This document shows positions 10,115 through 63,115 of a DNA stretch of 64,000 nt, one piece after another. The stretch comes from Acidobacteriota bacterium. GTDB taxonomy: Bacteria > Acidobacteriota > Thermoanaerobaculia > Gp7-AA8. Every line of letters begins with the position of its first letter. The first letter of the stretch is position 1. The stretch covers positions 1 to 64,000 of the forward strand of contig QHVT01000003.1 of NCBI GenBank assembly GCA_003223645.1, in the 5' to 3' direction. The notes under the pieces were generated by a model. That model saw nothing but the letters and a program-made list of their open reading frames with translations, ran no database searches and had not been told where the DNA came from. The translations under genes were made by a program, and so were the position numbers.

Positions 10115-11341
10115 TTGACGATCTCGCCGTACGCCTCCCTCCGCGTCCGCGACTTCCGACGTCTTCTCCTCGCGCACGGCACGCTGACCGTCGCGCGCGA
10201 AGCGCAGATCGTCGTCATCGGCTGGCAGGTCTACGAGCTGACGCACGATCCGCTGACTCTCGGCCTCATCGGACTCGCCGAGGCGCTGCCGTTCATCGCG
10301 ATCGCGTTGTATGCGGGGCATCTCGCCGACCGTGCGCCGCGCCGCACGATCGCGATCGGCGGCGCGTTCGCGGTCATGTGCTCCGCGGTTGCGCTGCTTT
10401 TGCTCACGATCACGCCCGGCGCGATCGCGGTGACGCGCGTCTGGCCGATCTACGTCGTGATCTCGCTCAGCGCGATCGCGCGCAGTCTGATGCGGCCGGC
10501 GGTTTTCGCGCTTTCGGCCGAAGTGCTGCCGCGCGAGTTGTATCCGAACGCCGTCGCGTGGCGGTCCTCGACGTGGCATCTCGCGGCCATTGCGGGACCG
10601 GCCGCGGGCGGCGTGTTGTACGGATTCTCGGGACCGGCGCTCGCGTACAGCGTCGTCATCATCGGGATGGCGCTCGGCGTCGCGATCCTTCTTTCGCTGC
10701 AGCATCGCGCGGCACCGGCTGCATCCGACGACGTGCCGATCGGTGAGAGTCTGAAGAGCGGCATTCGTTTCGTAATGAGCGAGCAGGTGTTGCTCGCGGC
10801 GATGACACTCGATCTTTTCGCAGTTTTGTTCGGCGGCGCGGTCGCGCTGTTGCCCGCATTCGCGACACTCCTCGGCTCGGGACCGGAAGGACTGGGCATC
10901 CTGCGTGCGGCGCCGGCGATCGGCTCGATCGGCACCGGCATCGTCGTCGCGCATCGTCCTCCGATGAGGAGCGCCGGCCGCTCCGTGTTCATTGCCGTCG
11001 CGGGCTTCGGCGTCTGCATGATCGCGTTCGCGCTGTCGCGCTCGTTCTGGCTCTCGTTCACGCTGCTCATCGTCAGCGGCGCGTGCGACAACGTGAGCGT
11101 GGTCATCCGCTCGACTCTGTTGCAGACGCGCACGCCGCAGCATCTCCTCGGGCGGGTGTCCGCGGTCAATCAGATCTTCATCGGCTCATCGAACGAGATC
11201 GGCGAGTTCGAGTCCGGTGTCGCGGCACGCCTCCTCGGCGTCGTTCCGTCCGTCATTTTCGGCGGATGCATGACTCTACTCGTCGTAGCGGCCGTCGCCT
11301 GGCGCTCGCCGCAGCTGCGCAAGATGCGCGGCCTAATTTAG
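10115..11341 (+). CDS. MFS transporter (EntS-like)
   Basis: About 408 residues from a TTG at 10115 (LTISPYASLRVRDFRRLLLA). The longer frame from 9980 would add a non-conserved stretch containing repeat-derived sequence. Twelve hydrophobic segments are visible, with the MFS loop motif GHLADRAPRRT between TM2 and TM3. The protein resembles the enterobactin-exporter/EntS branch of the major facilitator superfamily (PF05977-like). Probably exports a small molecule under control of the divergent TetR regulator. The 3' end overlaps the convergent PhoX-like gene by 4 bp. Confidence 0.85.
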   Translation: MTISPYASLRVRDFRRLLLAHGTLTVAREAQIVVIGWQVYELTHDPLTLGLIGLAEALPFIAIALYAGHLADRAPRRTIAIGGAFAVMCSAVALLLLTITPGAIAVTRVWPIYVVISLSAIARSLMRPAVFALSAEVLPRELYPNAVAWRSSTWHLAAIAGPAAGGVLYGFSGPALAYSVVIIGMALGVAILLSLQHRAAPAASDDVPIGESLKSGIRFVMSEQVLLAAMTLDLFAVLFGGAVALLPAFATLLGSGPEGLGILRAAPAIGSIGTGIVVAHRPPMRSAGRSVFIAVAGFGVCMIAFALSRSFWLSFTLLIVSGACDNVSVVIRSTLLQTRTPQHLLGRVSAVNQIFIGSSNEIGEFESGVAARLLGVVPSVIFGGCMTLLVVAAVAWRSPQLRKMRGLI

Positions 11342-12639
11342 TGACGGACGACGCGTCGCCGCGGCGGCGTCAAATGCATCGCCAGTAGTTGTCCACCCTG
11401 GACGACTTCGCCGCTTGCGGGCGTGTGCGTCTGCACGTCGAAGAGAATCCAGCCGTCGCCGAGGATGTCGGATGCGTCGATGACGCCGGACGACTCCTCG
11501 GAGGTCGAGATCGCGCGCGGTCCGTCGAATAGCGCGGGATCGTGTTGCGCGATGAGCTCGAGTTTGTCGGTCGCGGGATCGTAGCGCCAGATCCTCGCGA
11601 CGAGCGGGCCGTCCGGATCTTCCTGGATGATCACGTCGCCGCGCGCGCGCACGACGATGTTGTCCATCATCTTCGGTCCTTCGGTGCCGTCGAGCATGAC
11701 GTCGAGTCGTCCGCCGCGCGCGGGGTCGGCGAGATCGTCGAAGCGCAATCGCCACAATCTCGAGAAGCCGTTGAAGGTGGCAGTGGTGACGAAGTAGAAG
11801 TCGTTGGGATGCGTCGGGTCCCACGCGCCGTCTTCGGTGCGCTCCCACTGCGTGCCGCCCGCGGACGCACTGAGCGCGCGTTGAAAGGCGCCGCCGCTGA
11901 TGTTCGAGAGATTGCCGAGGTTGAGGAGCTGGAACGTGCTGCCGGCGGCGCGGACGACGTAAAGCGAGCCGTTGGTGAGACCTGCGCGCTCGATCGCATT
12001 GCCGGTCGCGCGCTTGTCGCCGATATAGACGTAGAGAAAACCGCCGTTCACGTCGTCGAGCCCGACGACGATCGTCTTGAACGCGGTCGGATGCGGCACC
12101 GCGTTCTCCCACTGAGCGTGACCGAAGCGCGGGAGCTCATATGACGTGCCGTCGAGCAGATGTGCGAACACGCGGCCTTCGAACGTTTCTTCACCGTCGA
12201 AAAAAATGCCGGTCGCGCGATCGAACGTTGCGGAGCAGAGACTCGTGAGCGCGACTCCTTTCGCGGGTGGCTCGTACGAATTCCTGTCGCGATTCCAGAC
12301 CGACACTTGTTGAATCAAATCGCTGCCGGCGATGACGGCGAAGTCGCTCTTGCGGATCGTCCACTTCGAAACGAACCCGCCGCGTGCTCCGTGCGCGTGC
12401 ATTGGCCCGTTCGGCGGCCCGATCTCGTGGTTCATCAGCACGGTGAACGTACCGTCGCCGTTGTCGAACGCGCCGAGTCCGTCGGGCACGCCGACCATCA
12501 CATAGCCGTTCACGCGATCGCCGGCAGTGAGCAGCGAGATCGTGTTGGCGCCGGGCGCAATGGGAAGAACGTATGGCGGCGTGGACGTGCTCGGCCCGGC
12601 CGAGGTCGCCAGCGTGGCCGCGAGAACGTATGCGAACAT
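11338..12639 (-). CDS. Secreted PhoX-like (DUF839) protein
   Basis: 433 residues with a signal peptide (MFAYVLAATLATSAG); a GTG two codons upstream is an alternative start. The sequence resembles the PhoX/DUF839 beta-propeller family: an NHEIGPPNG motif, DGEETFEGR, EDGAWDPTHPNDFYF, and a metal-binding-type EDPDG near the end. PhoX enzymes are calcium/iron-dependent phosphatases, usually exported. A phosphatase function here is inferred from resemblance only. The C-terminal end is PPRRRVVRH, one of three xVRH tails in this window. Confidence 0.75.
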   Translation of the reverse strand: MFAYVLAATLATSAGPSTSTPPYVLPIAPGANTISLLTAGDRVNGYVMVGVPDGLGAFDNGDGTFTVLMNHEIGPPNGPMHAHGARGGFVSKWTIRKSDFAVIAGSDLIQQVSVWNRDRNSYEPPAKGVALTSLCSATFDRATGIFFDGEETFEGRVFAHLLDGTSYELPRFGHAQWENAVPHPTAFKTIVVGLDDVNGGFLYVYIGDKRATGNAIERAGLTNGSLYVVRAAGSTFQLLNLGNLSNISGGAFQRALSASAGGTQWERTEDGAWDPTHPNDFYFVTTATFNGFSRLWRLRFDDLADPARGGRLDVMLDGTEGPKMMDNIVVRARGDVIIQEDPDGPLVARIWRYDPATDKLELIAQHDPALFDGPRAISTSEESSGVIDASDILGDGWILFDVQTHTPASGEVVQGGQLLAMHLTPPRRRVVRH

Positions 12640-15341: not shown

Positions 15342-15443
15342 ATAGATCAGAAAGCAGAAAGCAGAAAGGCCAGAAAGAACCTATGCGGATACTGGCTTTC
15401 CAATTTCTGCTTTCTGCTTTCTGCTTTTTGCTTTCTGATCTAT
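15342..15443. repeat. Palindrome with tandem 7-bp units (agaaagc type)
   Basis: The left arm begins atagatcagaaagcagaaagc. The right arm is tttctgc repeated and ends gctttctgatctat. It fills the gap between the divergent oxidoreductase and ABC transporter genes, so any promoters must lie within or beside it. Confidence 0.88.
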
Positions 15444-19506: not shown

Positions 19507-19633
19507 CCCGAGAACGCAGAGCGCAGAACGCAGAACGTAGAACGAAGAAAAGGCGGGCTTCTAAATTCTTCGTTCTTCGTTCTTCGTTCTGCGTTCTGCG
19601 TTCTGCGTTCTGCGTTCTCGGGTTCTCGGGTTG
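19505..19633. repeat. Palindrome with tandem 7-bp units (gaacgca type)
   Basis: The left arm reads aacccgagaacgcagagcgc and continues with gaacgca, gaacgta and gaacgaa units. The right arm carries seven or more complementary units (cttcgtt, ctgcgtt) and ends gttctcgggtt. It is one of the longest copies. The related gaacgca type also lies in frame in a YfhO gene at 40.28 kb. Confidence 0.9.
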
Positions 19634-22481: not shown

Positions 22482-23207
22482 ATGGACCACGCCGTGGCGC
22501 TGGTACAGGCGTATTTGCAGTTGAACGGCTATTTCACGTCCGCCGAATATCCGGTCATCGCCGGCGCGGGACGCAATGGATTTCGGACCGTCACCGACAT
22601 CGACATCCTCGCGTTTCGTTTTCCCGGCGGCGAGCCGATGGCGCGCTCGCGCCGCGCGCCGAAGTTGATCGACACGTCGGAGCTCGATCCCGGCCTCGCG
22701 GTGCCGAAGGAATCGATCGACATGATCATCGGCGAGGTGAAAGAAGGACGCGTCGGCATCAACACCGGCATCCGCGATCCGCGCGTGCTGAAGACGGTGA
22801 TCAACCGCTTCGGCGAAGTCGGCGACGCGGAGCGCGTCGTGCTCGAGCTCCTCAACGCCGGTGACGCGTGCATTCCGCCGACATCCTCGGTGCGTCTTAT
22901 CGCCTTCGGCTCGTTCCCGCCCGGATCGCAGGTCCCGCCGTGCCGCATCATTTCGCTCGGTCACGTGCTGTCGTACCTGCAGGCATACGTGCATCGCCAC
23001 TGGCACATGCTGCGTCACCTGCAGTTCAAGGATCCGGCGTTCGGGTTCCTGATGACGATGGAGAAAGCGCGGCGCGGCGGCGCGGGACGGCGCGGCGAAC
23101 AAGGCGTCGAGGTCGTGCCGCCGAAAAGCGAGGAGCGTGTTCCCAACGGGCGCCGCGCCGGAGAAACCGCGCGACAATTTCCGCCGCGCGTGCGGCGGCG
23201 GCGTTAA
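22482..23207 (+). CDS. Hypothetical protein, possible PD-(D/E)xK nuclease-like fold
   Basis: 241 residues from ATG at 22482; a GTG at 22470 is an alternative. The segment TDIDILAFRFPG followed by IIGEVKEGR resembles the D...ExK signature of PD-(D/E)xK nuclease-like proteins. The opening AVALVQAYLQLNGYFTSAEYPV fits such a helix-strand core. No catalytic activity has been shown for this family to my knowledge. The C-terminal 45 residues are basic and low-complexity, and the TAA stop lies at the first bases of a 9-mer palindrome. Function unknown. Confidence 0.65.
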   Translation: MDHAVALVQAYLQLNGYFTSAEYPVIAGAGRNGFRTVTDIDILAFRFPGGEPMARSRRAPKLIDTSELDPGLAVPKESIDMIIGEVKEGRVGINTGIRDPRVLKTVINRFGEVGDAERVVLELLNAGDACIPPTSSVRLIAFGSFPPGSQVPPCRIISLGHVLSYLQAYVHRHWHMLRHLQFKDPAFGFLMTMEKARRGGAGRRGEQGVEVVPPKSEERVPNGRRAGETARQFPPRVRRRR

Positions 23208-23280
23208 TAGGACGCATAGGACAGATAGGACAAATAGGACAAGTAGGACAGAGGTCCTATCCGTCCTATTTGTCCTATCA
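23205..23280. repeat. Palindrome with tandem 9-bp units (ataggacNN type)
   Basis: The left arm holds taataggac, gcataggac, agataggac, aaataggac and aagtaggac. The right arm holds gtcctat units in inverted order. It occupies the whole gap between two convergent genes and contains the TAA stop of the upstream gene. Confidence 0.88.
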
Positions 23281-27170: not shown

Positions 27171-27269
27171 ATGACGCTCAGCAGAAGAGAGTTGGCCGCC
27201 GCGGCCGCGGCAGGCAGCGTCCTGGTCAAAAATACTCAACACAAGGAACATCGCACTCGCGGTGAGTGA
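27171..27269 (+). pseudogene. Truncated Tat signal peptide gene, cut by a minisatellite
   Basis: An ATG at 27171 opens a textbook twin-arginine leader (MTLSRRELAAAAAAGSVLV). After about 20 codons the frame runs into the 21-bp minisatellite and stops at TGA 27267-27269. No continuation of an exported protein is found on the far side of the array. It looks like the remnant of a Tat-exported enzyme gene whose body was lost or displaced. Confidence 0.6.
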
Positions 27270-27852
27270 CATTGCACTCGCGACGAGGAAACATTGCACT
27301 CGCGGCGAGGAACGTTGCACTCGCGACGAGTGACATTGCATTCGCGGCGAGGACCATTGCACTCGCGACGAGGAACGTTGCACTCGCGGCGAGTGACACT
27401 GCACTCGCGGCGAGGAACATTGCACTCGCGGCGAGGAACGTTGCATTCGCGGCGAGGAGCATTGCACTCGCGGCGAGGAACATTGCACTCGCGACGAGGA
27501 GCATTGCACTCGCGACGAGGAGCCTTGCACTCGCGGCGAGTGACACTGCACTCGCGGCGAGGAACATTGCACTCGCGGCGAGTGACATTGCACTCGCGGC
27601 GAGTGGCATTGCACTCGCGACGAGTGACATTGCACTCGCGGCGAGTGGCATTGCACTCGCGGCGAGTGACGTTGCACTCGCGACGAGTGACGTTGCACTC
27701 GCGACGAGTGACGTTGCACTCGCGACGAGTGACGTTGCACTCGCGGCGAGTGACATTGCACTCGCGACGAGTGACGTTGCACTCGCGACGAGTGACGTTG
27801 CACTCGCGACGAGTGACGTTGCACTCGCGACGAGGAACATCGCACTCGCACG
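27243..27852. repeat. 21-bp minisatellite, about 29 units
   Basis: Tandem 21-bp units of the type gcactcgcggcgagtgacatt. Counting gcactcgc gives starts at 27253 and 27274, then 27296 and every 21 bp to 27842, about 29 units. One unit is 22 bp long. Variation is confined to a few positions: gcggcgag or gcgacgag, gagtgac or gaggaac, cat or cgt. Each unit contains a small palindrome (actcgc-g-gcgagt). Because 21 is divisible by 3, several frames stay open and give 7-residue repeats, which I do not regard as a gene. The non-coding stretch here runs from 27270 to 27913; beyond the array to 27913 I see nothing else. Confidence 0.95.
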
Positions 27853-32461: not shown

Positions 32462-32570
32462 TGATGAAGGCAGAAGGCAGAAGGCAGAAGGCAGAAGTGA
32501 GAACGGTACGTAACGCGGCCTGCGCCACTTCTTCGTTCTGCCTTCTGCCTTCTACCTTCTGCCTTCATTC
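32462..32570. repeat. Palindrome with tandem 7-bp units (gaaggca type)
   Basis: The left arm is tgatgaaggcagaaggcaga and further units. The right arm repeats ctgcctt and ends ctgccttcattc. It fills the aroA-MBL intergenic gap, and the MBL stop TGA lies in its first unit (aatgaagg). The same heptamer type is at 38625-38711. Confidence 0.9.
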
Positions 32571-36454: not shown

Positions 36455-36531
36455 AGATGGCCGATGGCGGATGGCAGATGGCGAAACATGGGCTGCGTTT
36501 CTGCCATCCGCCATCTGCCACCCGCCATCCC
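36455..36531. repeat. Palindrome with tandem 7-bp units (gatggca type)
   Basis: The left arm is agatggccgatggcggatgg and further units. The right arm repeats gccatcc and gccatct and ends cgccatcc. It lies between the divergent DnaJ-like and glgC genes. The same heptamer type is inserted in frame in a YfhO gene at 43335-43414. Confidence 0.88.
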
Positions 36532-38711: not shown

Positions 38712-41129
38712 TCCAATCACGATCAACACGACAATCGCCAGTCCCGAAACGATTGCTCCATACCTGAACGTCCACGGGTCGTACCACACGTGCACGTCCA
38801 ATTCTCCCGGCGGCACGGCAAACCCGAGGAACGTACCGTTCACGCGAATGGGCTCCACGTTCGCTCCGTTGCGCGACACTTTCCATCCCGGCCACCACGG
38901 GATGCTGCTGACGATGAGCGAGTAGCGCGGCGCTTTGACGTGCAGGCGGTAGCTCGACGGCTTCGCTTCGAGGATCTCCGACGTCGCGAGCGGCGCGCTC
39001 ACGGGACGCGGGCGGAAAAAGTCGTCGTGCATCTGCCGGTTTTCGAGATCGAGCTTGTCGAGGAGCGCGGTCTCGCGCCATTCGTCGAGGTGTTTCAGTT
39101 TTTCGTAGAACGTCGTGTCGTTGAAGTCGATGATCACGTTGCGGACGGGAAAGAATCGCGGCAGCACGTCGCGGTTTTCGTAAATGCGGCCGTCGCGTCC
39201 GTCGTACAGCATCGTGTAGCGCGGCGCGGGCAGCTCCGCGCGCCACGGCGTGATCACGTAGCGCACGTTGAGGTAATCGAGCACGCGCGTGTTGAAGTCG
39301 TTCCAACGCGCGAAGTAGTCCTCCGCGTCGTAATTCGTCACCCACGAAATGAAGCCGATGTAGCGGCCGTAGGCCATCGGATCGTGCGGGCGAATGTCTT
39401 CGTATCCGTAGACGCCGTTGAGGTTCGGGAAAAACGCCGGCCCCGCGCCGACCATGCGCGCGGGATGTTTCGCGACTAGCTCGTCCATCTTCTCGAGGAT
39501 CGGCGTCTTCGGGTACATCCACTTCGCCTCGATCGTGGGGTTCCATTCGTGTCCCGCGCTCCACAACTCCACGATCACCGCGACGAGAATCAGCATCGAC
39601 CAGCGCGGGAAGAACGCGATGACCGCCGCGACGACGAGCACGACGAGACTCGGGAAAATCGCGATCAACGCCGTATCGCGTTGGATCGCGCCGGGAAAGT
39701 TCGTGCGGACGAGAAACGTGAGCAACACCGCGCCCGCGGCGGCGATGCCGATCAGCACGGGCGCGCGTTTGCCGCGCTCGAGCAGATTCACGACCGCCGC
39801 AGTTTGAATCGCGAACAGCATCGCCAGCAGCAATCGCAGTCGCGCGTTCGCGGCGAGGCGGAAGATGAAATGAAACAGCTCGCGCACGCCCGGCCACGAC
39901 ATCACGATTCCGAGCACGAGCAGCGTCATGAAGACGAAGAACGCCTCGCGCGAGCGCCACGACCGCGTGGCGATCACGTGCGCGAGGAGCGCGAACCATG
40001 CGGCGACGCCGAGGAAGCCGGCGAAGCCGGTGATCGACTCGGGATGCGCGGCCGTGCCCCACGCCGGCTCGTTCGGAATGCGGCCGTAAAAATGCGGCTG
40101 CAGCGTCGCGATGAACGACGGCCAGTCGGAGAACGGCACTTCGACGCCCGGCGGATGCGCGCGCAGTTCCTGATAGCGCTTCGATTTGTTGATCGCTTCC
40201 GCGAACGGCGCAAGGAGCGGCGCGGCGATGAGCGCGGCGACGGCGAGCGCGCAGAAGAATGCCGCAAAAAATCGATAGGTAGAACGCGGAACGATGAACG
40301 CAGAACGCAGAGCGAAGAATGAAGAATTGAGAACATTCTGCGTTCTGCGTTCTGCGTTCTGCGTTTTGCGTTCCACCAAGCCAATCCACAGCGCGTACAG
40401 CACTGCAATGAAAAACGTGTGCGCCGCCGTCTCCGGATGTCCGCCGAACAGCAGCACCGCCCACACCACCGCCGCGGTGACGAAGCGTTTGTACGTGACG
40501 CGTTCCGCGAGCAGATCGGTCGCGTACAGCACCGCCGGCAACATGCACGCAGACGTGACGAGCGGAAAGTGCAGCCAGACGATGATGAACGACGAGAGCC
40601 CGAACGCGACCGCGCCGATCGTGCTCGCGAGCTCCGAGTAACCGCGACGCCGGCAAAAAAGAAACGTGAACGTGAATGCGATGAGCAGTTTCATCGCCGC
40701 CTCGGCCGTCATCGCGTGGCCGAGGTCGAGCGGCAGCGCGAGGAGGCGCAGCGGAGAGAGCGCGGACGTTTGTGGATTGCCGAGGAGCGGATAGCCGGCG
40801 GCGGAGAGCTCGTTCCACAGCGGGACGTGCAGCGAGCGCCACGCGTCGCGCACCTGCTGCGCCCACGGCACGATCTGCAGAACGATGTCGTTCATGTAGA
40901 GATTCGAGGCGCGGTGATCGCGCAGGAGATGCGCCCACGGCGGCAGCGTCTTGAGGAAGTCGACGGGAAGATTGACGTAGTCCTGCGTCAGAGGCAGGTA
41001 GAAAAAGACGAAAACAAGCGCGTAGAAAAAAATCGCGATGCGGACGGGGATGGCGGCGTTTGCACGGCGCGCAAGCCAGATTGCGGCGGCATACACGACG
41101 CCGACAAACATCCAGGTCGGATTAAACAC
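38676..41129 (-). CDS. YfhO-family multi-membrane protein with in-frame heptamer insertion
   Basis: 817 residues. About 12-13 hydrophobic segments in the first 480 residues, then a mostly extracytoplasmic C-terminal domain and a final membrane segment. PF09586-type landmarks: FFYLPLTQDYVNLP, WNELSAAGYPLLGNPQTSALSPL, GHPETAAHTFF, DYLNVRYVI and WWPGWKVSRNG. The family is GT-C-like, and YfhO has been linked to glycosylation of teichoic acid in Bacillus; the substrate here is unknown. A heptamer palindrome (40281-40373) inserts about 31 codons (RKTQNAERRTQN...) after IGLVE. The C-terminus runs into another palindrome. It overlaps the upstream paralogue by 8 bp. Confidence 0.85.
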   Translation of the reverse strand: MFNPTWMFVGVVYAAAIWLARRANAAIPVRIAIFFYALVFVFFYLPLTQDYVNLPVDFLKTLPPWAHLLRDHRASNLYMNDIVLQIVPWAQQVRDAWRSLHVPLWNELSAAGYPLLGNPQTSALSPLRLLALPLDLGHAMTAEAAMKLLIAFTFTFLFCRRRGYSELASTIGAVAFGLSSFIIVWLHFPLVTSACMLPAVLYATDLLAERVTYKRFVTAAVVWAVLLFGGHPETAAHTFFIAVLYALWIGLVERKTQNAERRTQNVLNSSFFALRSAFIVPRSTYRFFAAFFCALAVAALIAAPLLAPFAEAINKSKRYQELRAHPPGVEVPFSDWPSFIATLQPHFYGRIPNEPAWGTAAHPESITGFAGFLGVAAWFALLAHVIATRSWRSREAFFVFMTLLVLGIVMSWPGVRELFHFIFRLAANARLRLLLAMLFAIQTAAVVNLLERGKRAPVLIGIAAAGAVLLTFLVRTNFPGAIQRDTALIAIFPSLVVLVVAAVIAFFPRWSMLILVAVIVELWSAGHEWNPTIEAKWMYPKTPILEKMDELVAKHPARMVGAGPAFFPNLNGVYGYEDIRPHDPMAYGRYIGFISWVTNYDAEDYFARWNDFNTRVLDYLNVRYVITPWRAELPAPRYTMLYDGRDGRIYENRDVLPRFFPVRNVIIDFNDTTFYEKLKHLDEWRETALLDKLDLENRQMHDDFFRPRPVSAPLATSEILEAKPSSYRLHVKAPRYSLIVSSIPWWPGWKVSRNGANVEPIRVNGTFLGFAVPPGELDVHVWYDPWTFRYGAIVSGLAIVVLIVIGMKAEGRRQKAE
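40281..40373. repeat. Heptamer palindrome (gaacgca type) in frame inside a YfhO gene
   Basis: The left arm is agaacgcggaacgatgaacg and further units. The right arm repeats ctgcgtt and ends tttgcgttcc. It is about 93 bp (31 codons), without stop codons in the host frame. It falls at the end of a membrane segment, presumably in a loop. Confidence 0.88.
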
Positions 41130-43497
41130 GGCGGCGGATCATAGCGAGGACGCCGACGGTCAACAACGAAACCGCGAGGCCGCCCCAGAACGAAATGGGA
41201 ACGAATCGCACGCGCACCGTTCCGGCGCCCGGCGGAATCGTGAAGCCGAGGAACGCGCCGTAAATGATGCGCGGCCGCAGCGCGCGGCCGTTGTATGTCA
41301 CGCGCCAGCCCGGCCACCACGCGATGCTGCTCGCGACCTCCGCTTCGCGTGGCGCGTCGACGCGCAGCTCGTACGCGTCACCGCTCCACTTCGTGATCGC
41401 GACGTTCGCCTCATGCGAGAAAAAGCGCGGCATCGCGTGCACGTTCTCGAAGATGCGCCCGTCTTTTCCGTCGTACACGAGCCGGAAGCGGGTATTTGGA
41501 GTGGTGCGCGCCTCCGGCGCGCCTGTGGGGGCTGGAGGCGCGCCGGAGCCGCGCACCATTCCAGCAGCCGGCTCCATCAGGATCCAGCGTGCGTTCAGAA
41601 AATCGAGCAGCGGCGAATCCGCGTCGTTCCACTTTTCGTAATACGCGTTCGGGTCCCAGTTGCGCGTCGTACGCAGCAATCGCATGTAGCGGCCGTTCGC
41701 CATCGGATCGTGCGTGCGCACGTCCGCGAGTCCGAACGGCACGTTGAGGTTCGGAAACAGCGGCGCGCCGATGCCGGCGATGCGATACGGCTCCTTCGTC
41801 TGCAGTTTCAGCAGCGCATCGATCATCGGCGTGCGCGGATAGAGCTCCGTGCCGCGCTGCACCGGATTCCACGCCGCCGACGTCGCGAACAACTCGACAT
41901 ACACCGCGAGCGCGATGATCACCGGACGTTTGCGGAACAGCGCGGCGACGACGAGCACCGCCACGCTCGGAATCAACGCGACGAGCGCGAAGTGCCGCTC
42001 GCCCGGATCGGGGAAGTGCGTGCGCAGCATCACGTACGCTAGCGCCGCCGCACCGGCGCCGATCGCGACGAACAGTGGAGGACAGGCAATCCTGCCTGTC
42101 CGGACAGGCAAGATTGCCTGTCCTCCACAGTAATGCACGAGCGCGGCGGCCTGGATCGCGAGGAAGAACGAGAACGGCAGTCGCAATCGCGCGTTGAGCG
42201 CGATCGAGAAGAGATCGCGCAATGGAATGCTGATGATCGGCACGTCCGCGAGCCAGACAAAAAGCACCGCGCTCGCGACGAGATAGAACCACTCGGCTGT
42301 GCGGTTGCTCGGTCGCGCGGTTGCTCGGTCGTCGTTGCCGCGCGACCGCGAAACCGTAAGACCGCGCAACCGCACCACGAGCATGCCGAACCACGCGCCG
42401 ACACCCAGAATCCCGCAGAAGCCCGACACCGCCTCGGTCACCGCCGGCCCCCAGAACACGCCCGGATGCTCGCCGTAGATTCGCGGATGCACGAGCAGCG
42501 CGAGCGACGGAAAATCGGAGAACGCGGTGCCGTTGCGATGCGAGGTGTGCTGCAAATCCTGATAGCGCATCGTCAGCGGCAATGCTTCGATGAGCGGCGC
42601 GAGGATCGGCGCGGCCAGCAGCGCGGACACGATCGCGGCTGCGAGCAATCGCTTCCACGCATGCGGCGCGGTTGCGAGCGCGTACGCGGTCGCGATGAAC
42701 GCGATGTGCGCGACCGATTCCGGATGGCCCTGCGAAAGCAGCAGCGGACCGAGTGACGCGGCGAAGACAAAGCGCGCGAACGTCCGCTTCTCCGCGAGCA
42801 AGTCGATCGCGAAGAGCACGGCCGGCAGAAACGCGGCCGCGGCGCCGATCGGGTAGTGCAGCCAACTGAGGATGAACGTACCGAAGCCGAACGAGATCGC
42901 GCCGATGACGCTCGGCAGTTCGTCGTAGCGCCGGCGGCAATAGAGAAAGGTGAACGTCAGCGCGACGAGAATCTTCATCGCCGCCTCGGCCGCGAGCGAG
43001 TACGTCAGCGGCAGCGGAATCGTGAGGAGACGCAGCGGCGAGAGCGCCGCGCTCTGCATGTTCGCCAGCAGCGGCATCCCGCACCCGGTGAGGTCGTTCC
43101 ACAGCGGCACGTGCAGCGTGCGCCACTGATCGTGCACCTGCTGCATCCACGGCGCGAGCTGGAACATCACGTCCTGCAACTCGAAGTTCGAGACCGAATA
43201 CTTGTCGAATCCCGGCTGCTGCCACGGCCACACCGCCTTGAGGATGTCGGGCGCGACGTTGTTGTACGGCCCCGTCATCGGACGGAAGAGAAACGCCAGC
43301 GTGAGCGCGTAGAAAAGCGCGGCCACGCGCCACGGGATGGATGGCGGATGGCGGACGGCAGATGGCAGAGGCTGTGATTCGTCCGCCGTCTGCGATCTGC
43401 CATCCGCCATCCGCGGAGCCGCCATCGGCGAAGCCCTGCGCACAATCGCAATTGCGATTGCATACAGCGCAGCGACATAGAGCCACGTGAAATTCAC
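41122..43497 (-). CDS. YfhO-family multi-membrane protein with four in-frame palindromes
   Basis: 791 residues from GTG at 43497, whose first bases overlap the tyrA stop (gtga); the longer frame upstream is inside tyrA. Paralogue of the next gene: WNDLTGCGMPLLANMQSAALSPL, GHPESVAHIAFIA, DFLNARWIL and WWPGWRVTYNGR correspond. Some twelve membrane segments precede an extracytoplasmic C-terminal domain. Foreign palindromes are read through at 43335-43414 (after VRRAS), 42301-42374, 42075-42128 and 41497-41563. Each lies in a predicted loop between membrane segments or in the C-terminal domain. Likely a GT-C-type envelope glycosyltransferase or related protein. Confidence 0.85.
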   Translation of the reverse strand: MNFTWLYVAALYAIAIAIVRRASPMAAPRMADGRSQTADESQPLPSAVRHPPSIPWRVAALFYALTLAFLFRPMTGPYNNVAPDILKAVWPWQQPGFDKYSVSNFELQDVMFQLAPWMQQVHDQWRTLHVPLWNDLTGCGMPLLANMQSAALSPLRLLTIPLPLTYSLAAEAAMKILVALTFTFLYCRRRYDELPSVIGAISFGFGTFILSWLHYPIGAAAAFLPAVLFAIDLLAEKRTFARFVFAASLGPLLLSQGHPESVAHIAFIATAYALATAPHAWKRLLAAAIVSALLAAPILAPLIEALPLTMRYQDLQHTSHRNGTAFSDFPSLALLVHPRIYGEHPGVFWGPAVTEAVSGFCGILGVGAWFGMLVVRLRGLTVSRSRGNDDRATARPSNRTAEWFYLVASAVLFVWLADVPIISIPLRDLFSIALNARLRLPFSFFLAIQAAALVHYCGGQAILPVRTGRIACPPLFVAIGAGAAALAYVMLRTHFPDPGERHFALVALIPSVAVLVVAALFRKRPVIIALAVYVELFATSAAWNPVQRGTELYPRTPMIDALLKLQTKEPYRIAGIGAPLFPNLNVPFGLADVRTHDPMANGRYMRLLRTTRNWDPNAYYEKWNDADSPLLDFLNARWILMEPAAGMVRGSGAPPAPTGAPEARTTPNTRFRLVYDGKDGRIFENVHAMPRFFSHEANVAITKWSGDAYELRVDAPREAEVASSIAWWPGWRVTYNGRALRPRIIYGAFLGFTIPPGAGTVRVRFVPISFWGGLAVSLLTVGVLAMIRRRV
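41497..41563. repeat. Palindrome inside a YfhO gene (gtggtgcgcg type)
   Basis: Arms tggagtggtgcgcgcctccg and its complement ending cgcgcaccattcca, with internal ggcgcgcc palindromes. It encodes a Gly/Ala/Pro-rich insert (GSGAPPAPTGAPEART) in the C-terminal domain. I found no second copy in the window. Confidence 0.75.
42075..42128. repeat. 54-bp palindrome, family D, inside a YfhO gene
   Basis: Exactly 54 bp, starting gtggaggacaggcaatcctg and ending with the complement. It is the same element as at 1859-1912 and is read in the same frame, giving GGQAILPVRTGRIACPP between AALVHYC and LFVAIGAG. Confidence 0.88.
42301..42374. repeat. Octamer palindrome (gcggttgctcgg type) inside a YfhO gene
   Basis: The left arm is gcggttgctcggtcgcgcgg and the right arm is its complement ending accgcgcaaccgc. 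Same type as the elements at 948-1028 and 63041-63115. Read in frame it encodes RLRGLTVSRSRGNDDRATAR-like residues between two membrane segments. Confidence 0.85.
43335..43414. repeat. Heptamer palindrome (gatggcg type) inside a YfhO gene
   Basis: The left arm is ggatggatggcggatggcgg and further units. The right arm is gccatccgccatccgc and ends ccatccgc. In frame it encodes RMADGRSQTADE...AVRHPPSI near the N-terminus, between the first and second membrane segments. Confidence 0.88.
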
Positions 43498-46353: not shown

Positions 46354-46464
46354 GTTAGCGATGAAGGATGAAGGATGAAGGATGAAAGATGAAGATGAAT
46401 TCACGCCTTTGACGCCGTTCATCTCTCATCCGTCATCCGTCATCCTTCATCCTTCATCGTTAAC
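46354..46464. mobile_element. Gene-less copy of the gttagcgatgaagg element
   Basis: The left end is gttagcgatgaaggatgaag and further gaaggat units. The right end is the complement, read inwards as gttaacgatgaaggatgaag. Both ends match the termini of the gene-bearing element at 48549-49017 (gttagcgatgaaggatgaag and gttagtgatgaaggatgaag). About 100 bp, no gene inside. It supplies the last residues (TMKDEG) and stop of queC. Confidence 0.8.
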
Positions 46465-47234: not shown

Positions 47235-48548
47235 ATGGCCGACTACTCCGTGTACGAGCTGCTCAACAAGAAACGCCGCGGCGGTCCGCTGGACGCTGCT
47301 GAGATCGAGTTTTTCATCGACGGCTTCACGAAGAGCGCGATCCCCGAGTATCAGATGTCCGCGCTCCTGATGGCAATCGCGATCAACGGCATGACCGCTC
47401 CGGAGATGGCGACGCTCACGCAGTCGATGCTGCGCTCGGGCGAGCAGTGGCACCTGCGCGACAGCTACGACTACTTCGCCGACAAACACTCCACCGGCGG
47501 CGTGGGCGACAAAGTCTCGCTCGTCCTTTCGCCGTGGGTCGCCGCCTGTGGCATCAAGATCGGCATGCTCTCCGGCCGCGGCCTCGGGCACACCGGCGGC
47601 ACGCTCGACAAGCTCGAAGCGATCCCCGGCTTCAACGCGCGCCTGTCGCGCGCCGACTTCGAGAAAGCGGTGGCCGATTGCGGCTGCGTGATCTCGACGT
47701 CGACCGAAGGCATCGCGCCCGCCGACAAAAAAATCTACGCGCTGCGCGACGTCACCGGCACCGTCGAGTCGCTCCCGCTCATCACCGCATCGATCATGTC
47801 GAAGAAGCTCGCGATGGGCGCGTCCGCGCTCATCCTCGACGTCAAGACCGGCAGCGGCGCGTTCATGCGCAACTACTCCGACTCGAAAGCGCTCGCGCAA
47901 AGTTTGATCGCCGCGGCCGCGGGATCGGGCACACGCGTCGAAGCGCTCATCACCGACATGGACCGCCCGCTCGGCATCGCCGCAGGAAACGCAAACGAGA
48001 TCATCGAAACGATCGAATGCGTGAAAGGCAAAGGACCCGCGGACGTGATGGAAGTGACGCGCGCGCAAGCCGTGCGCATCCTCGCCATGTCCGGCCGATT
48101 CGACGACGCATCCGCGGGCAAAGCGCTCCACGACGCGCTCACGTCCGGCCGCGCACTCGAACAAACGCGCAAATGGATCGCCGCACAAGGCGGCAACCCG
48201 AAAATCGTCGACGACTACTCACTCCTCCCTCAGCCCCGCACCGTCATCGAAGTCAAAGCGCCGCGCTCCGGCTACATCACCCACATGGACACCTATCAAG
48301 CCGGCATGTTCACCGTCGACCTCGGCGCCGGCCGCAAGAAAGCCGACGACGTGATCGACTACGCCGCGGGCGTGATGTTCGACAAGCGCAGCGGAGACGA
48401 AGTGAAAGCGGGAGAGGTGATCGCGCGGATTCAGTTGGGCGCGGCGGCACGAGACGAGCGAGAGCTCGTGTCAAGGTTTCTGTCCTTCGTAGAGTTTGGA
48501 GACGACCAGCCGAAGGCGCGGCCGCTTGTACATGAACACCTGACGTAG
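47235..48548 (+). CDS. pdp: Pyrimidine-nucleoside (thymidine) phosphorylase
   Basis: 437 residues from ATG at 47235. Family signature SGRGLGHTGGTLDKLEAIPG, phosphate-binding DKHSTGGVGDKVSLVL, and LILDVKTGSGAFM identify the deoA/pdp family. It splits pyrimidine (deoxy)nucleosides into base and (deoxy)ribose-1-phosphate. The C-terminal domain (KAPRSGYITHMD...GDEVKAGEVIARI) is complete. deoB lies downstream on the same strand, as in nucleoside catabolic operons, but a 470-bp mobile element has been inserted between them. Confidence 0.95.
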   Translation: MADYSVYELLNKKRRGGPLDAAEIEFFIDGFTKSAIPEYQMSALLMAIAINGMTAPEMATLTQSMLRSGEQWHLRDSYDYFADKHSTGGVGDKVSLVLSPWVAACGIKIGMLSGRGLGHTGGTLDKLEAIPGFNARLSRADFEKAVADCGCVISTSTEGIAPADKKIYALRDVTGTVESLPLITASIMSKKLAMGASALILDVKTGSGAFMRNYSDSKALAQSLIAAAAGSGTRVEALITDMDRPLGIAAGNANEIIETIECVKGKGPADVMEVTRAQAVRILAMSGRFDDASAGKALHDALTSGRALEQTRKWIAAQGGNPKIVDDYSLLPQPRTVIEVKAPRSGYITHMDTYQAGMFTVDLGAGRKKADDVIDYAAGVMFDKRSGDEVKAGEVIARIQLGAAARDERELVSRFLSFVEFGDDQPKARPLVHEHLT

Positions 48549-49017
48549 TGTTTCGCGAGAGCAGTTAGCGATGAAGGATGAAGGATGAAGGATGACTCGC
48601 GATTTGTGCGATCGAACTAAAACGTTCGCATTGCGAATCATCAGGCTTTCATCAGCGTTACCGCGGCGTCGTGAGGCGACCGTGATGGCGCGACAAGTGC
48701 TGCGCGCCGGCACGTCTGTCGGCTCTCATTGTCGCGAGGCTTATCGTGCCCGGTCGAATGCGGAATTGGTCAGTAAACTCGAAACCGCCTTGCAGGAACT
48801 CGACGAGACAAGCTACTGGCTCGAGTTGATCAGCGAATCGAACGTGATGCCTACACAACGACTCGCGCCGCTGATCCAAGAAGCCGACGAACTGACGCGC
48901 ATTCTGGTAGCTTCTGTAAAAACGATTAAAGCTAATTCGCAAACGTCATGACTAACCCGCATTCATCTTTCATCCTTCATCCTTCATCCTTCATCACTAA
49001 CGCTTCACGAAACAGCC
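48549..49017. mobile_element. Terminal-inverted-repeat element carrying a four-helix-bundle gene
   Basis: The left end is gtgtttcgcgagagcagtta, then gcgatgaagg and gaaggat units. The right end is the complement: gttagtgatgaaggatgaag preceded by the inverted tgtttcgtgaa. Arms contain three to five tandem 7-bp gaaggat units. The single gene inside encodes a four-helix-bundle protein. The architecture resembles the intervening sequences found in some bacterial 23S rRNA genes, but here the element is between two metabolic genes. A gene-less copy with the same termini is at 46354-46464. Confidence 0.8.
48592..48951 (+). CDS. Four-helix-bundle protein (23S intervening-sequence/Avd type)
   Basis: 119 residues: LCDRTKTFALRIIRLSSALPRR then ATVMARQVLRAGTSVGSHCREAYRARSNAELVSKLETALQELDETSYWLELI. 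This is the typical four-helix-bundle (TIGR02436) pattern of proteins encoded in 23S rRNA intervening sequences, related to the Avd factor of diversity-generating retroelements. The start ATG is part of the left repeat arm, whose gaagg units also provide Shine-Dalgarno-like sequence. Basic, soluble, no catalytic motif. It probably binds nucleic acid or a partner enzyme. No reverse transcriptase or transposase gene lies nearby. Confidence 0.9.
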   Translation: MTRDLCDRTKTFALRIIRLSSALPRRREATVMARQVLRAGTSVGSHCREAYRARSNAELVSKLETALQELDETSYWLELISESNVMPTQRLAPLIQEADELTRILVASVKTIKANSQTS

Positions 49018-53671: not shown

Positions 53672-53783
53672 GTCTGCCAGCCTCCCAGCCTCCTGGCCTC
53701 CAAGCCTCCCAGGAGTGGGCGGGAGGGACTTGGAGGCTTGGAGGCTGGGAGGCTGGGAGGGTGGGAGGGTGGAGGCTGGGAGA
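53672..53783. repeat. Octamer palindrome (gcctccca type)
   Basis: The left arm is gtctgccagcctcccagcct and further units. The right arm is long and rich in gggaggct and ggaggctt units, ending gaggctgggagac. It lies between the recombinase and the transglycosylase, leaving about 50 bp for a promoter. Confidence 0.85.
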
Positions 53784-60680: not shown

Positions 60681-61118
60681 TTCATTTGCAACCGGCCTGT
60701 TTTCATTTGCAACCGGCCCGTTTTCGTTTGCGACGGGCCTGTTTTCATTTGCGACGGGCCTGTTTTCGTTTGCAACGGGCCTGTTTTCGTTTGCAACGGG
60801 CCTGTTTTCATTTGCAACCGGCCCGTTTTCATTTGCAACCGGCCCGTTTTCATTTGCAACCGGCCCGTTTTCGTTTGCAACGGGCCTGTTTTCGTTTGCA
60901 ACCGGCCTGTTTTCGTTTGCAACGGGCCTGTTTTCATTTGCAACCGGCCCGTTTTCATTTGCAACCGGCCCGTTTTCATTTGCAACCGGCCTGTTTTCGT
61001 TTGCAACCGGCCTGTTTTCATTTGCAACCGGCCCGTTTTCATTTGCAACGGGCCTGTTTTCGTTTGCAACCGGCCCGTTTTCGTTTGCAACGGGCCTGTT
61101 TTCATTTGCAACCGGCCG
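60681..61118. repeat. 21-bp minisatellite, about 21 units
   Basis: Tandem 21-bp units of the type tttgcaaccggcctgttttca. tttgc occurs at 60685 and every 21 bp to 61105, giving 21 units with no length change. Only a few sites vary: cat or cgt, caac or cgac, ccgg or cggg, cccg or cctg. All frames stay open and encode 7-residue repeats (FSFATGL on plus, KTGRLQM on minus), probably not real proteins. Together with the family B palindrome it makes up the gene-free stretch 60572-61205. A short unassigned sequence follows to 61205. Confidence 0.95.
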
Positions 61119-63040: not shown

Positions 63041-63115
63041 GTTGCGCGGTTGCGCAGTCGCGCGGTTACGCAGCCCGACCGCCCGCGCAACCGAGCGACC
63101 GCGTAACCGAGCAAC
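63041..63115. repeat. Octamer palindrome (ggttgcgc type) between gvp genes
   Basis: The left arm is gttgcgcggttgcgcagtcg and further units. The right arm is the complement, ending gcgtaaccgagcaac. It fills the gap between the GvpF/L and GvpG genes. Same type as 948-1028 and 42301-42374. Confidence 0.87.

Follow-up and report, generated by a model that had tools for sequence, protein, structure and literature searches.

Intervening sequences of 23S rRNA that carry an S23 open reading frame occur in Coxiella and in other bacteria, Leptospira among them. A second comparable system is REPIN-RAYT, in which dispersed gene-less inverted-repeat hairpins coexist with a resident gene that is flanked by the same repeats. 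The STRR heptamers of cyanobacteria are tandem heptanucleotides located between genes, and we know of no protein partner or inverted layout for them.

In the account of Coxiella given in PMC4990558, the 23S rRNA intervening sequence is described as having a 28-bp stem and an S23 ORF preceded by heptamers. For Xcc, GGGAATC arrays are reported in PMC4692102 (84 on the plus strand, 102 on the minus strand and 70 inverted pairs), a study of quadruplexes that nowhere uses the terms "transposase" or "four helix". Abundant heptamers are also described in the genome paper of Geobacter metallireducens, where unidentified proteins are supposed to act at the tandem repeats, and in a Beggiatoaceae paper on TAACTGA heptamers, whose authors ask for a repeat-binding protein. 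Among open-licence PMC papers, none was found to connect S23 genes with inverted heptamer arrays in general, save the local remark on Coxiella.

The locus described here belongs to a 64,000-nucleotide stretch of an Acidobacteriota genome (the window). Positions 48549–49017 form a closed hairpin consisting of an outer stem, a (GATGAAG)n array, an S23 gene, the complementary array and the outer stem again, with the following parts:

48549–49017, no strand: whole hairpin element, between the pdp stop codon (48546–48548) and the deoB start (49022)
48549–48569, plus strand: left outer stem TGTTTCGCGAGAGCAGTTAGC, parts of which recur at the genome's other GATGAAG copies
48570–48595, plus strand: left heptamer array, 3.7 x GATGAAG
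48592–48951, plus strand: S23 / 23S_rRNA_IVP four-helix-bundle gene, 119 aa (PF05635, TIGR02436, model pLDDT 96)
48962–48995, minus strand: right heptamer array of 4.9 TTCATCC units that complement the left array
48996–49014, minus strand: right outer stem ACTAACGCTTCACGAAACA

The element starts one base past the pdp stop codon and ends four bases short of the deoB start, and its paired stem stops at 49014. An earlier, sequence-only reading of this DNA had placed a four-helix-bundle gene between terminal inverted repeats, and the analysis agrees: arm 48564–48595 is complementary to 48970–49001 over 32 nt at 97%, the outer stem is prolonged by TGTTTCG (from 48549) pairing with CGAAACA (up to 49014), and the RNA fold of 48549–49017 reaches -192.9 kcal/mol (z = -8.0), with 0 of 100 shuffles as low. 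Terminal inverted repeats, as looked for in MITEs and insertion sequences, are thus present at the window S23 element. The same reading was right that the start codon and a GAAGG sequence of the S23 gene lie inside the left array, and that the neighbours are pdp and deoB, which were identified as a pyrimidine-nucleoside phosphorylase (TIGR02644, 1.7e-153) and a phosphopentomutase (3.9e-158). Its term "palindromic" does not fit the 7-mers, which are no palindromes in themselves: one arm repeats the other in inverted form. Allowing at most one mismatch, 16 copies of GATGAAGGATGA are present in the window where 0.24 would be expected. The window also contains two long 21-bp minisatellites, at 27248–27849 (28.6 copies) and 60681–61117 (20.8 copies).

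The ORF at 48592–48951 (119 aa) matches PF05635 (E 2.2e-20, 73.3 bits against a cut-off of 33.8) and TIGR02436 (E 1.4e-26, 92.8 bits against a cut-off of 24), consistent with the kinship to 23S intervening sequence proteins that the earlier reading had pointed out. Its matches to NF033474 and PF22296 are under cut-off. AlphaFold predicts four helices (pLDDT 96.1), and the closest structural neighbours of the model are 2rld (Z 19.0) and 2gsc (Z 16.5), the latter being XCC0516, the S23 protein of Xanthomonas campestris. Both of these solved relatives have five chains per entry, and the title of Lin 2006 refers to five four-helix bundles. Next in the list is Avd, including Avd within the ribonucleoprotein of a diversity-generating retroelement (DGR), with Z 13.5–14.4 and a Foldseek probability of 1.00 (E 0.012); of the suggested relatedness to Avd, an Avd-like fold is supported. 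Since unrelated four-helix bundles score up to Z 12.9 in the same structural list, the Avd Z value alone is weak, and the likeness leans also on Foldseek and on PMC10053308.

The genome of the window has eight PF05635 matches, seven of which carry inverted arrays of period 7 or 8. Their seven units are CCCAGCA, CCGCGCAA, TGAGCCCA, GAAGGCA, GATGAAG, AATTGTG and GAAAGCA, and the eighth match (L007) is split over two frames with unclear arms. A test that compares the 5' flank with the reverse-complemented 3' flank was then fixed for all loci. Inverted tandem arrays were found around other S23 genes as well, passing at 119 of 186 loci from many phyla, plasmids and viral contigs, with period 7 in 110, period 8 in 6 and period 9 in 3. 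The other 67 are under threshold, and a number of these show weak period-7 arrays. By source, the pass rates are 28/35 for class relatives, 48/78 for the named-genome scan, 8/9 for viral loci, 11/13 for plasmids, 11/24 for twelve named genomes and 13/27 for gammaproteobacteria; 11/21 additional cyanobacterial S23 loci, outside the 186, pass. Random positions passed once in 840, that one being an S23 locus, and positions displaced by ~2.8 kb in the same loci passed once in 122. Mismatched flanks passed in 23 of 621 cases, some of them flank pairs sharing a unit.

The 186 loci, which are phylogenetically non-independent, are best-scoring matches, with at most the 30 best per whole-genome search; 17 of the listed plasmid records were taken and 13 of these counted. 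The named-genome scan covered the best 80 of 567 relatives, which by record title fall into ~18 phylum-level groups, and further loci came from class relatives, viral contigs, plasmids, the twelve named genomes and 80 gammaproteobacterial genomes. Left out were near-copies (L186, L188, L189, L191), repeats of earlier loci (L218, L220, L221, L222, L229, L231), contig-edge or partial loci (L262, L277, L280) and four loci with less than 80 bases of flank. The viral near-copies L150/L151 and L155/L156 were both counted. Phage records gave no match to one canonical S23 protein used as query.

Rfam found no match in the window and none in 20 further S23 loci. An S23 element inside 23S rRNA was accordingly rejected for this locus, given the Rfam result and its position between pdp and deoB, and an rRNA match at L143 (1 match from five short 23S rRNA motifs) was not upheld by Rfam.

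Four PF05635 matches lie in a row in Candidatus Laterigemmans baculatus (G045:C63:10644-13661), and the class relative G033 has 25 PF05635 matches, with many short or weak ones among them. The Calothrix NIES-22 plasmids L185 and L186 have a segment in common, on which lie the same S23 gene and a gene of the phage integrase family. On the Planktothrix agardhii plasmids L187, L188 and L189, the S23 element follows drmD in a DISARM/restriction neighbourhood, and its heptamer copy numbers differ between strains. In the Pseudanabaena galeata plasmid L241, the S23 gene is located between csx2 and cas1.

The paired arms at S23 loci have a median length of 33 nt (quartiles 31–37), similar to the arm length of 29 gene-less hairpins; of 87 arms on the 5' side, 76 are rich in purines. 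The arms are complementary in register. For 68 heterogeneous arm pairs, the true unit order gives 43.8 against 35.2 for permuted orders (Wilcoxon 1e-11), and it equals or exceeds every permutation tried in 47 of the 68. Position 1 of the unit is G in 74/81, position 2 is A in 70/81 and position 3 is A in 52/81, values that arise partly by construction because units were rotated to GAA; the triplet GAA is present in the unit in 41/81 against ~26 expected. Among period-7 arrays, GAA was found at 45/70 loci of the YW type (the window-type protein motif (E/D/Q)(A/S/T)x(Y/F/N)W) and at 8/38 of the EG type (IAEG), with a Fisher value of 1.9e-5, and GTG was found at 3/70 and 13/38, respectively; p values are only a guide since the loci are non-independent. 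Judged from these sequence comparisons, the unit varies between loci and follows the S23 protein subfamily.

The window contains 14 inverted hairpins per 64 kb, 13 of them gene-less, against 0 in a reversed-only control. The corresponding count in G001, a genome of the same genus, is 3 in 80 kb with 1 in its control. The proposal that gene-less members of the family are dispersed over the window is upheld by these 13 hairpins, but only the one at 46360–46458 has the GATGAAG unit and the others differ. Those with units of period 7 or 8 are:

46360–46458, no strand: GATGAAG hairpin with GTTARC ends at the queC/queE junction, absent in G001
63041–63115, no strand: 8-mer hairpin GTTGCGCG, the unit of S23 locus L002, with a clean empty site in G001
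32466–32566, no strand: GAAGGCA hairpin, the unit of S23 locus L004
38626–38709, no strand: GAAGGCA hairpin, the unit of S23 locus L004
15348–15437, no strand: CAGAAAG hairpin, the unit of S23 locus L008
29672–29753, no strand: GAATTGA hairpin, a unit variant found in the arms of S23 locus L006
51813–51901, no strand: ATTGTGA hairpin, the unit of S23 locus L006, with a different array there in G001
19511–19618, no strand: AGAACGC hairpin, a unit seen at S23 locus L058 of G001
40281–40373, no strand: AGAACGC hairpin, gene-less
36455–36530, no strand: AGATGGC hairpin, gene-less
43339–43426, no strand: GGATGGC hairpin, gene-less
53677–53782, no strand: 8-mer hairpin CCAGCCTC, gene-less

Period-9 hairpins of the AATAGGACA / GTCCTATTT type, with loops of 3–9 nt, were seen at 23206–23279 of the window, at 12238–12344 of L209 and at 10613–10698 of L201, and may belong to a distinct repeat family that has no link to S23.

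Seven of the 13 gene-less hairpins have a unit or unit variant in common with an S23 locus of their own genome, and the units of the other six were unseen at any S23 gene of that genome. From 17.6 to 64 kb the window is collinear with G001, and 10 of the 13 were compared there (those at 15348, 23206 and 29672 being the exceptions). At nine of these ten places no hairpin was detected in G001, and the tenth (51813) has a different array. The cleanest empty sites, 46360 and 63041, are both at gene junctions, and the flanks at 19511, 32466, 36455, 38626 and 40281 are too diverged in G001 for exact joins. The copy at 46360 provides the end of the queC frame and precedes a conserved queE start. When 11 paired GATGAAG copies were examined, including the S23 copy, 10 were found by eye to share outer-end parts near GCATCGCGAGAGCNGTTARC on at least one side. 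At L026 the outer stem of the GATGAAG copy is of another sequence, though it too is complementary to itself.

The pdp-deoB site itself was followed through relatives. An S23 gene with heptamer arms is located there in three other genera (G007, G008, G011), with mainly the unit GATGAAC on both sides. The site is empty in G006 and G004, and G001 has a different reading frame at the junction. In G012 the junction (L166) holds a direct 7-mer array with no S23 gene and no inverted partner; that genome has 290 matches of the GATGAANGATGAANGATGA pattern against only 3 PF05635 matches. The sequence-only reading had looked to relatives for an empty pdp-deoB junction and for a target duplication. The former exists in two genomes, but no target-site duplication is evident at copy ends, where the nearest relative is mostly too diverged for exact joins. 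No case of the gene kept in place without repeats, which would have spoken against a mobile element, was seen at pdp-deoB; the repeats stay where the S23 gene stays.

The four pdp-deoB S23 proteins are 61–78% identical, with pN/pS of 0.17–0.35 and pS near saturation. By this measure the gene is under purifying selection and the protein is kept. Since S23 and its arms are retained in G007, G008 and G011, the pdp-deoB copy looks like an old insertion rather than a recent move, with both arms altered together. A single gain at this site was not upheld: the deoB tree is unresolved, with 3 changes, and is compatible with one origin or several.

Heptamer arrays were also counted in other genomes. 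Regions of S23-positive genomes that were not chosen for hairpins gave 30 period-7 arrays in 480 kb (7/24 regions), and sampled S23-free genomes gave 0 in 346 kb (0/20 regions). From these counts L299 was dropped, as it holds an S23 gene, and some regions are short (L196 with 223 bases and L310 with 731). Periods 5, 6 and 9 differ little between the two sets. The S23-positive regions sampled are richer in arrays of periods 8, 10, 11 and 12 as well, so that part of the contrast may be genome composition.

If the published Xanthomonas unit belonged with S23, an S23 gene with GGGAATC arms would be expected. Three tandem perfect GGGAATC copies were found in only one of 369 gammaproteobacterial genomes (G418), and there a partial PF05635 gene (profile 1–64) lies between GGGAATC and GATTCCC arrays. 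The gene is positioned, by eye, between accB-like and accC-like sequence, and G418 has gene-less GGGAATC hairpins as well. A reversed GGGAATC control pattern matched only G206 among the 369, which has an S23 gene too, with arms of the near unit AGGGCCA/AGGGCTG. Because PF05635 is present in 21/80 gammaproteobacterial genomes searched, S23 presence alone counts for little in G418 and the unit match is the point. The expected arrangement thus occurs in one genome, G418 (n = 1).

In Scytonema and Planktothrix, S23 genes are flanked by GGGGA(C/T)T, the unit published for Nostoc. The equivalent expectation for TAACTGA failed. This unit was found in 3/116 cyanobacterial genomes, with 18 matches in G516 and one each in G044 and G526, and the array-rich G516 has no PF05635 gene whereas G044 and G526 do. 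Heptamer arrays can therefore exist without S23. With the reversed pattern as control, AGTCAAT arrays were found in G506 and G526, where the S23 arms are TTAGTCA, AATTCAA and GGGGACT.

The reading that we favor, and consider fairly probable, is that of a widespread class of small hairpin elements without a transposase of their own, existing as S23-bearing full copies and gene-less short copies, in which an S23 pentamer would bind its own repeat and act in trans. Each of the two arms is a tandem array of a 7-nt unit, ~33 nt long, and one array is the reverse complement of the other. In full copies the loop carries the S23 gene; short copies have no more than the arms, joined by a loop of some 8 to 100 bases. 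The S23 protein, probably a pentamer, would bind its own repeat as an RNA or single-stranded DNA hairpin. TRAP, in binding its triplets, offers a model for one repeat unit per subunit. Since the solved S23 relatives have five chains and the arms have four to five units, perhaps one 7-nt unit would be bound per S23 subunit. The start codon and ribosome site lie inside the arm, so S23 binding could regulate S23's own translation. Spread or retention of the hairpins would further depend on S23 acting in trans, and the chemistry of movement would be supplied by enzymes of the host or of another source. On this view, a classical intervening sequence of 23S rRNA would be the same element inserted into rRNA. 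A bolder version remains tentative, and we lean slightly against it as a whole: that S23 proteins found a transposase-less hairpin class over many phyla, with a pentamer that recognizes on its own hairpin arms a phased code of five triplets such as GAA, set 7 nt apart, and that acts in trans to spread or maintain gene-less copies, and that this accounts for much of the heptanucleotide excess and for the origin of 23S intervening sequences.

Alternatively, the hairpins may be immobile, having arisen locally by polymerase slippage and hairpin template switching and been kept as terminators, RNase III sites or regulator sites, with S23 genes there because they are regulated by, or tolerant of, such hairpins. 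Array length does differ between Planktothrix plasmids, slippage at 7 nt is proposed for the heptamer excess in PMC4692102 and PMC4679880, and no target duplication is seen at copy ends. However, copies at separate sites share units and parts of ~20-nt outer ends, nine of the ten window copies compared are missing at syntenic G001 sites, and 346 kb of S23-free genomes contain no period-7 array, making a local origin unlikely.

Another possibility is that a Y1 (RAYT/IS200-like) transposase moves the DNA hairpins in trans, as for REPINs, with S23 as cargo or accessory. The gene-less paired inverted repeats look like REPINs, and Y1_Tnp is found in 24/27 relatives with a PF05635 match and in 8/13 without. 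Against this, the hairpin-rich genome of the window has one weak Y1 match (E 3e-7, contig C4) and G001 has none, yet both have hairpins; the Y1-bearing, S23-free genomes G022, G028, G035 and G037 show no period-7 array in the sampled regions; and the unit follows the S23 subfamily. Movement by Y1 is thus distinctly unlikely.

The sequence-only reading had considered a trans-acting reverse transcriptase. In such a scheme, a host enzyme, from a DGR or a group II intron, would reverse-transcribe the hairpin RNA and S23 would partner it in the manner of Avd, in line with the Avd-like fold (Z 13.5–14.4; Foldseek probability 1.00) and with three RVT_1 matches in the genome of the window, which are on contigs C42, C22 and C37 with none on C21. 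The relatives do not support it. RVT_1 occurs in only 7/27 of those with a PF05635 match and in 2/13 of those without, and G004, G007, G012, G015, G017 and G018 have 3 to 7 PF05635 matches each with no RVT_1 match. Lacking any such association, reverse transcriptase was rejected as a required S23 partner, and with unrelated bundles reaching Z 12.9 the Avd Z value is weak as support. This route is highly unlikely.

That S23 is a toxin, defence or other host gene, with the hairpin serving only as its control region, is very improbable: several plasmid copies do lie in DISARM, CRISPR or DNA-methylase neighbourhoods and PADLOC gave a weak AbiEi profile match (E 1.3e-4), but that match was judged chance and PADLOC gave no other, gene-less copies with the same units exist, and other S23 copies adjoin genes as unrelated as pdp/deoB, accB/accC-like sequence (by eye) and ribonucleotide reductase.

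With the S23-bound hairpin class again in mind, three questions may meet at one point: what the widespread small S23/IVP family does, how rRNA intervening sequences originated, and why 7-mer tandem repeats are in excess between bacterial genes. If the link between S23 and heptamers is true, this would be a mobile-element class without its own transposase, and S23 would be a candidate for the proteins supposed at the Geobacter metallireducens heptamers. For the Beggiatoaceae TAACTGA heptamers, the sole array-rich TAACTGA genome encountered (G516) has no S23 gene.

Compared with the described systems, the window element resembles the 23S intervening sequences in having an S23 gene in the loop of a hairpin made from terminal inverted repeats, and it resembles that of Coxiella in the tandem heptamers adjoining the S23 ORF, as these are presented in PMC4990558. 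Unlike them, it is outside rRNA, between protein genes, and has many gene-less relatives; its units differ from copy to copy, and tandem 7-mer arms are present at most S23 loci tested. What it shares with REPIN-RAYT is the dispersal of non-autonomous paired inverted repeats, but the gene between the repeats encodes an S23 four-helix bundle (PF05635) rather than a Y1 transposase, and the arms are tandem heptamers. Like the GGGAATC heptamers of Xanthomonas, reported in PMC4692102 as intergenic and often in inverted pairs, the arms are intergenic tandem 7-mers, and the Xanthomonas and Nostoc units themselves flank S23 genes, in G418 (GGGAATC) and in Scytonema and Planktothrix. The S23 four-helix-bundle fold is shared with Avd of diversity-generating retroelements (Z ~14; probability 1.00), but no reverse transcriptase adjoins the window S23 gene. 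The S23 hairpin is akin to the intervening sequences but lies outside rRNA, with a real chance of forming a class of its own, and the recurrence of its layout at most S23 genes tested across bacteria, with gene-less copies nearby, suggests that a type of small dispersed element has been missed.
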